DNA of 64,000 nt from Gammaproteobacteria bacterium (GTDB lineage Bacteria; Pseudomonadota; Gammaproteobacteria; Nitrosococcales; Methylophagaceae): contig JARGFJ010000003.1 in assembly GCA_029210875.1 (NCBI GenBank), forward strand, positions 1-64,000, read 5' to 3'. The notes under the pieces were generated by a model. That model was not told the origin of the DNA and did no database searches. It saw only the letters and a program-made list of their open reading frames with translations. Positions 19,167 to 21,714 of the stretch are shown piece by piece (position 1 is the first letter of the stretch; each line of letters starts with the position of its first letter). The translations under genes and the position numbers were made by a program.

Positions 19167-19646
19167 TCAGTTAACATGGAAGTTTCGTCTAACACTACGA
19201 AGCAGCGCATACATTACAGGCCAAAGCACTGTACTCATTACAGCTGGCAACCATAATGTGAAATCAAAGGTACGTGATGAAACCAACATTGAAATAACGT
19301 TAACCAAAAATACCAATGCCATGATACTTAATGCCTGTTGCCATAGCGGGTATTGCCGTAATTGCAAATGAAAGCGTAAGACAAAATAGACAACCAGCGC
19401 ATAGGAAAAAGCCAAAATCCCTAATTGACCTCCCAAGGTTACATCCATAATCAACCCTGTGCACCAGGCAAAACCGACACCTACGCGCTTGGGTAAGGCC
19501 ATCGCCCAATAAATCAGGGTCATGACCACCCATTCTGGTCTAATAAAACGGATATTTTCAGGCAGAGGAACTAGCATCAAAATCATCGCGATAATGATCG
19601 AAATAACAATAAATATGTAGCCGTGTTGTTGTTTGTTATTGACCAT
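19167..19646 (-). CDS. mreD: Rod shape-determining protein MreD
   Basis: Small multi-TM protein immediately after mreC; RPEWVVMTLIYWAMALPKRVGVGFAWCTGLIMDVTLGGQLG; start trimmed to MVNNKQQ. Confidence 0.92.
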   Translation of the reverse strand: MVNNKQQHGYIFIVISIIIAMILMLVPLPENIRFIRPEWVVMTLIYWAMALPKRVGVGFAWCTGLIMDVTLGGQLGILAFSYALVVYFVLRFHLQLRQYPLWQQALSIMALVFLVNVISMLVSSRTFDFTLWLPAVMSTVLWPVMYALLRSVRRNFHVN

Positions 19647-20559
19647 CTTCAATTGGCTCCTGTTTCGCCACATCACCAGATGGTAGATCCTTTGCTGTTT
19701 CACCCTCCAACGGCTCACCATTTGTTGAAACAGTTAAATTTTGAGTGGGTAATACCAATAATACTTCACGACTTGTTTCTACTTTTGCTGCTGGTGTTAC
19801 CTGAATATCTGCAAATGCTTGCCCTTCCGGATAATTAATTGCTCTTACCGTTCCCACTGGGTAGCCATTGGGGAAACGCCCACCAAAACCAGATGTTACA
19901 ATTAAATCACCAACACGAACATCTGCACTATAGGGTAAATGTTCAAGTTGCAAAGGCTTGCCAAGTCCCCTGCCTGTTGCAATAGCACGTAGACCGTTTC
20001 GATTTATTTGCACAGGTATAGCATGGTTGGGATCTGTCAGTAAGATAGCACGACTGGAAAACGGACCCACTTCAATTACTTGCCCCATTACGCCTGTTGC
20101 ATCCAGGATCGCTTGCCCAGAAAAAACACCGTATTGTTTGCCTTTATCAATAACGACTTGTTGTGAAAAAGGGTCCATGTCAATCGTCAGCAATTCGGCA
20201 ACCAAAACACGTTCATTTAAGCGAAATGATGATCCTAATAGCTCTCTAAGACGCATATTTTCACGCTCTAACGCTTGCAGTTTTTGAAGACGGGCACTAT
20301 TGAGCAAATTGGTCGCTTCTAACACAGCAATTTTTTGTTTTAAGTCGTTACGATCTTGAAACAAAGTCTGAGCCCACTCTTTGATGCTGGTTGGCACCGT
20401 AGCAATCGTTTGAAAGGGATAAACAAGTGTGCTTAAAACAGCTCTCACCGGCACAAAATAATTAAGTCGTGTATCAGCAAAATACAATAACAACGACGCT
20501 ACTAACGCCAGCAGTAACCGGGCATTAAGTGATGGGATATGGGTAAATAGTGGTTTAAT
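19636..20559 (-). CDS. mreC: Rod shape-determining protein MreC, apparent ATT start codon
   Basis: VIDKGKQYGVFSGQAILDATGVMGQV, LEHLPYSADVRVGDLIVTSGFGGRFPNGYPVG. Translating upstream of the ORF-track start gives IKPLFTHIPSLNARLLLALVAS, matching the conserved MreC N-terminus. Confidence 0.9.
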   Translation of the reverse strand: MKPLFTHIPSLNARLLLALVASLLLYFADTRLNYFVPVRAVLSTLVYPFQTIATVPTSIKEWAQTLFQDRNDLKQKIAVLEATNLLNSARLQKLQALERENMRLRELLGSSFRLNERVLVAELLTIDMDPFSQQVVIDKGKQYGVFSGQAILDATGVMGQVIEVGPFSSRAILLTDPNHAIPVQINRNGLRAIATGRGLGKPLQLEHLPYSADVRVGDLIVTSGFGGRFPNGYPVGTVRAINYPEGQAFADIQVTPAAKVETSREVLLVLPTQNLTVSTNGEPLEGETAKDLPSGDVAKQEPIEDGQ

Positions 20560-20634
20560 AGTTTACGTTCCAAAAACTAAAAAACCTTTGTCGATACCAA
20601 TACCGACAAAGGTCGAAATGTCATTAGCAAAACA

Positions 20635-21714
<1,080 letters not shown>

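Follow-up and report, generated by a model that had tools for sequence, protein, structure and literature searches.

As a rule, gene callers allow no start codons other than ATG, GTG and TTG. In E. coli the gene pcnB, which has no role in translation, starts with AUU, and this is thought to keep its expression low. Initiation factor IF3 destabilises initiation complexes unless they have formed on AUG, GUG or UUG (PMC5472188). The gene infC is autoregulated via its AUU start (AUC in Streptomyces). For sigR of Streptomyces, IF3 represses the GTC start and thereby determines the ratio of SigR to RsrA (PMC5472188). In a survey of annotated genes, one switch to AUU was found among 61,358 ancestral AUG starts (PMC5622118). 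For mreC, we found no report of a non-canonical start, of IF3 or of the Shine-Dalgarno sequence (SD) in the open-access literature, a scope in which work published in subscription journals could be missed.

The window, i.e. the whole stretch of 64,000 nucleotides analysed here, which is from a Methylophaga-like bacterium, contains a gene with a PF04085 domain, which is flanked by mreB and mreD. The following features are of relevance, each with the basis of its assignment.

20635..21681, minus strand: mreB, the upstream gene, with an ATG start (ORF list and mreB control)
20583..20614, minus strand: hairpin resembling an intrinsic terminator and then a T run, in the mreB-mreC spacer (covariation in the family)
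20569..20571, minus strand: GGA, a weak SD-like site 9 nt 5' of the ATT (sequence)
20563..20565, minus strand: stop codon TAA, in frame, two codons 5' of the ATT (sequence)
20560..20562, minus strand: ACT codon between the TAA and the ATT (sequence)
20557..20559, minus strand: ATT (AUU), putative initiation codon of mreC (aligned codon ATT or ATC in 29 of 29 Methylophagaceae sampled)
19636..20559, minus strand: predicted mreC coding sequence from the ATT, 307 amino acids (PF04085 and alignment with E. coli MreC from residue 1)
20491..20493, minus strand: internal TTG, the mreC start according to ORF callers, within the membrane helix (position not conserved in relatives)
19167..19646, minus strand: mreD, the downstream gene (sequence, ORF list and alignment of relatives)

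On the minus strand, the junction between mreB and mreC reads ...TTTTTGGAACG TAA ACT ATT AAA CCA CTA TTT ACC CAT ATC CCA TCA CTT AAT GCC CGG.... A sequence-only reading of this DNA had proposed that mreC starts at the ATT, and its description of the site was accurate. The ATT at 20559-20557 is in frame with the conserved MreC N-terminus, it is preceded by ACT and the stop TAA with no ATG, GTG or TTG in between, the GGA (20571-20569) lies at the spacing given, about 9 nt, and ORF callers indeed place the start at the TTG 20493. This TTG (20493-20491) is the first canonical in-frame codon of mreC, and the reading frame is open for 22 codons 5' of it, up to the ATT. A start further upstream in frame is excluded, since the TAA stands two codons before the ATT. 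When translated from the ATT, the protein matches PF04085 with an E-value of 6e-43 (146.6 bits, curated cut-off 28) and, as had been stated, it aligns with full-length E. coli MreC (MKPIFSRGPSL...) from residue 1. The probable ATG of mreD (19646-19644, minus strand) overlaps the mreC stop codon.

A comparison of this codon in close relatives had been proposed along with the AUU start. Using the MreC protein, we searched 59 related genomes and obtained 29 Methylophagaceae loci, in which the aligned codon is ATC (17 loci) or ATT (12 loci) and in no case ATG. The same ATT is found at locus L003, in an independent genome with 91% identity. As the window comes from a draft assembly (2.44 Mb in 93 contigs), an ATG read as ATT by error, or a mutation confined to this genome, had to be considered. 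The genome with 91% identity speaks against it, as do a further 28 relatives with ATT or ATC; we rejected this explanation and regard its probability as negligible. Chance is likewise excluded by the agreement of all 29 loci.

In the following, AUH denotes ATT, ATC or ATA (AUU, AUC or AUA). For a class-wide set, the results of a search of 276 genomes, a phylum search and fetched regions were aligned together, giving 215 rows (214 genomes and E. coli). Since only the best matches were listed, the sample favours genes resembling the query, and the AUH counts are not unbiased frequencies. Loci L032-L080 were left out of all counts, because they came from search patterns, including IKPLFTHI, that favour Ile at codon 1. 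Among the matches listed, AUH stands at mreC codon 1 in 133 of the 215 gammaproteobacterial rows and in 60 of 101 family codes. Within these listed matches, 119 of the 133 AUH rows have no canonical start up to 25 codons upstream, and 14 have some upstream canonical candidate. The other listed rows comprise 46 with ATG, GTG or TTG at codon 1, 26 with an upstream canonical start, 8 with another codon and 2 that are truncated. E. coli mreC has ATG at the same aligned position. The sequence-only reading had treated the AUU start as a peculiarity of one genome; in this it was mistaken, as the same codon class is spread across the Gammaproteobacteria. For alphaproteobacterial MreC N-termini, no reliable alignment was obtained.

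Some loci deviate from this pattern. Codon 1 of mreC at L143 (genome G149) is GTT, with a GGGAG SD; from the upstream stop as far as codon 14 there is no canonical start, which makes a GUU start possible. At L108, L112 (family f98) and L123 (f120), the apparent start is an ATC three codons further 5', which in L112 and L123 is preceded by a GAGG-like site. AUH seems to be retained at these loci despite a longer MreC N-terminus.

Is the AUH codon the true start, or does translation begin at an internal canonical codon, as ORF callers have it? Within families (511 pairs), codons 2-24 of mreC have a pN/pS of 0.285 and codons 25-60 one of 0.359, and the first region gives 0.774 and 3.408 in the shifted frames. 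By this measure, codons 2-24 evolve as protein. With an internal start, MreC would lose its cytoplasmic tail and some of its membrane helix, although these codons are constrained. Moreover, the first internal canonical codon varies among relatives (index 14, 15, 16, 18, 22, 25 and others), and no downstream canonical codon keeps its position across the aligned mreC relatives before the membrane helix. The same approach recovered the expected codons in control genes. In most of 30 infC loci, inspected by eye, ATC, ATT or ATA was found at the known start, and infC of the window's own genome (L268, G000:C30) starts with ATC. For mreB, ATG was found in 69 of 84 rows, the remainder being mainly imprecise local alignments; a canonical start lies nearby in 85 of 85 mreD loci. 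The start of pcnB in the window's own genome (L308, G000:C17) is ATG.

An internal start also underlies the published numbering of MreC from P. aeruginosa. In the genus of genome G365, AUH was found in 25 of 25 genomes (23 ATC, 1 ATA and 1 ATT; loci L310-L334). We take this genus to be Pseudomonas, because the MreC protein of G510, which belongs to the same genus, is 100% identical over 176 residues to P. aeruginosa MreC (PDB 6zlv). Residues of the P. aeruginosa protein have been numbered Pro114/Phe115, Arg175, Glu188 and Arg190, and its cytoplasmic part and membrane region were assigned to the first 14 residues (PMC8137920). When counted from the AUC in Pseudomonas, these residues come exactly 16 positions later, and on alignment the 97-258 construct (6zm0) has the same 16-residue offset. 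It follows from this offset that the first codon of the published protein is an in-frame GTG, located 16 codons 3' of the AUC. This GTG (index 16) falls within the membrane helix, and in the close Pseudomonas relatives L311, L315 and L318 the AUH codon is kept while this GTG is absent. Hence, the published P. aeruginosa MreC looks like a truncated annotation in which the cytoplasmic tail is missing and the membrane helix is incomplete. The structures of soluble P. aeruginosa MreC are unaffected by such a truncation.

The SD sites provide further evidence. In 89 of the 90 AUH rows with an SD core, this core is located 5-9 nt 5' of the AUH codon, with a peak at 6, a spacing that suits AUH instead of an internal codon. 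Given the shifting position of the internal canonical codon and the absence of the GTG in some Pseudomonas, we rejected an internal start (the TTG 20493 in the window), which we consider very improbable. From the conserved codon, the coding constraint from codon 2 onwards, the SD spacing in relatives and the infC control, AUH is almost certainly the start codon of mreC, and there is strong support for the earlier proposal that the AUU, as opposed to the internal TTG, is where translation of mreC begins in the window.

Outside the Methylophagaceae, a strong SD was found in 97 of 104 AUH rows vs 16 of 46 NUG rows, and the family medians of the SD duplex energy are -7.30 kcal/mol for AUH and -3.15 kcal/mol for NUG (p 2e-7). 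The same is seen within family f33, where the ATT member L144 has an SD and the ATG members L110 and L168 do not. A phylogeny-aware test of independent pairs for SD and start pointed in the same direction (3.4 vs 0.1 pairs), but its 5 supported pairs were too few for significance (median sign-test p 0.25). It is also a general tendency that weak start codons come with stronger SDs (PMC5622118). The overall picture is in keeping with selection for initiation at a low, set rate. Methylophagaceae mreC genes have a weak SD, with duplex energies averaging about -3.3 kcal/mol, and the window has the weak GGA only.

The hairpin between mreB and mreC is kept in nearly all Methylophagaceae sampled. RNAalifold gave 13 pairs, 7 of them with compensatory changes; by direct count, 95.7% of cells are paired and 8 of the 13 pairs are changed on both sides. 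The covariation score was 0.479, vs 0.271 after shuffling and at most 0.136 after sliding. The hairpin suggests that mreB is transcribed mostly alone. As it is kept and the SD is weak, MreC output in the Methylophagaceae seems to be restrained both at read-through and at initiation.

Changes of codon 1 were counted on a FastTree tree of MreC from which the N-terminus was left out. The third base changed at least 40 times among T, C and A, and 9 changes between AUH and AUG were counted, compared to a mean of about 37 with shuffled labels. It follows that the AUH trait is stable within clades while the exact codon drifts. Third-base changes to or from A (11) are about as frequent as those to or from G (9), and for this reason we do not claim selection against AUG as proven. 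The free interchange of T, C and A, together with the position of mreB just 5' of mreC, would also fit a neutral, tolerated AUH, where initiation is carried by the SD or by re-initiation from mreB. However, AUG is one mutation away and was not regained in most lineages, as the 9 changes indicate. The distance from the mreB stop to mreC codon 1 has a median of 76 nt and overlap occurs in none of the rows measured, which is a poor set-up for re-initiation; because of this distance we rejected re-initiation as the main route. Neutral drift is thus improbable in our view.

Comparison of genomes documents where mreC starts, how widely this start is conserved and how the SD is spaced, as well as the hairpin, and the following mechanism is proposed on this basis. 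Translation from the AUU at 20559-20557 would give a protein beginning with formyl-Met-Lys-Pro-Leu-Phe..., with its cytoplasmic tail and membrane helix complete. Initiation at AUU, AUC or AUA would be weak because IF3 discriminates against these codons, and synthesis of MreC would be slow relative to that of MreB from the same locus. In most other AUH families sampled, a strong SD 5-9 nt upstream would make the weak codon usable, and in the Methylophagaceae the weak SD and the conserved terminator hairpin would cut MreC output further. Through the overlap of its probable ATG with the stop codon of mreC, mreD may be coupled to mreC and would be throttled together with it. The level of MreC would go up with a shortage of free IF3 and go down with a surplus.

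We hold it likely that AUH serves to keep MreC low. As an overall explanation, a weak AUU start that is discriminated against by IF3 and keeps MreC, and the coupled MreD, below MreB is the one we favour with reasonable confidence; against it count the weak SDs of the Methylophagaceae, the small number of independent events behind the association of SD and start, and the fact that E. coli and other lineages do well with AUG at the aligned site, without AUH. The low expression of MreC, its IF3 dependence and the effects on MreD and wall growth are what we infer from the codon and its setting. Alternatively, AUH may be the true start and a fixed low-output setting, with cellular IF3 varying too little to regulate MreC. 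This agrees with the comparative support for AUH usage, with the trade-off between SD strength and start codon expected of a rate set-point, and with the finding that AUG lineages are mostly without a strong SD. GUG, UUG or a poor SD could have served as such a set-point, though, and IF3 generally represses non-canonical starts, with physiological relevance in infC and sigR (PMC5472188). We consider a purely fixed setting rather unlikely. A meaningful regulation of MreC by IF3 in vivo, to which we are led by the behaviour of the infC AUH and sigR GTC starts, is a tentative proposal about which we are somewhat doubtful. Equally tentative is the broader idea that mreC is, after infC, a second gene with an IF3-sensitive AUH kept across much of the Gammaproteobacteria, tying the supply of MreC and the coupled MreD to free IF3 and ribosome status.

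With AUH kept in 60 of the 101 families sampled, a core cell-shape gene would add a major new case to a class of starts regarded as very rare, and one that stayed hidden because of the codons that gene callers usually accept. If true, MreC proteins in databases are often truncated, as in the P. aeruginosa numbering, which is short of the first 16 residues. Moreover, wall growth would be linked to translation capacity through MreC, a scaffold of the elongation complex; such a direct connection between initiation of translation and growth of the wall lends itself to testing.

Compared with the known systems, mreC shares with infC a conserved AUH start without canonical alternative, and the same approach recovers both. 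The two differ in that the product of infC regulates its own gene, whereas mreC lies outside translation; any effect of IF3 on mreC would hence be a cross-link. With pcnB from E. coli, mreC has in common that a non-translation gene starts with AUU. Yet pcnB has ATG in the window's genome, whereas the AUH of mreC spans much of the class. The GTC start of sigR can be likened to mreC as well, as it is repressed by IF3, determines in what ratio one locus supplies two proteins, and was misannotated in genomes (PMC5472188). It is a different codon in Actinobacteria, and it has been proven experimentally, whereas the AUH of mreC in Gammaproteobacteria is supported by comparison. The mreBCD locus of E. 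coli has the same gene order and start codon position as that of the window; its mreC combines ATG with a poor SD, whereas most other gammaproteobacterial families sampled combine AUH with a strong SD. AUH starts are already known as a kind, and mreC is an unusually widespread example outside translation.
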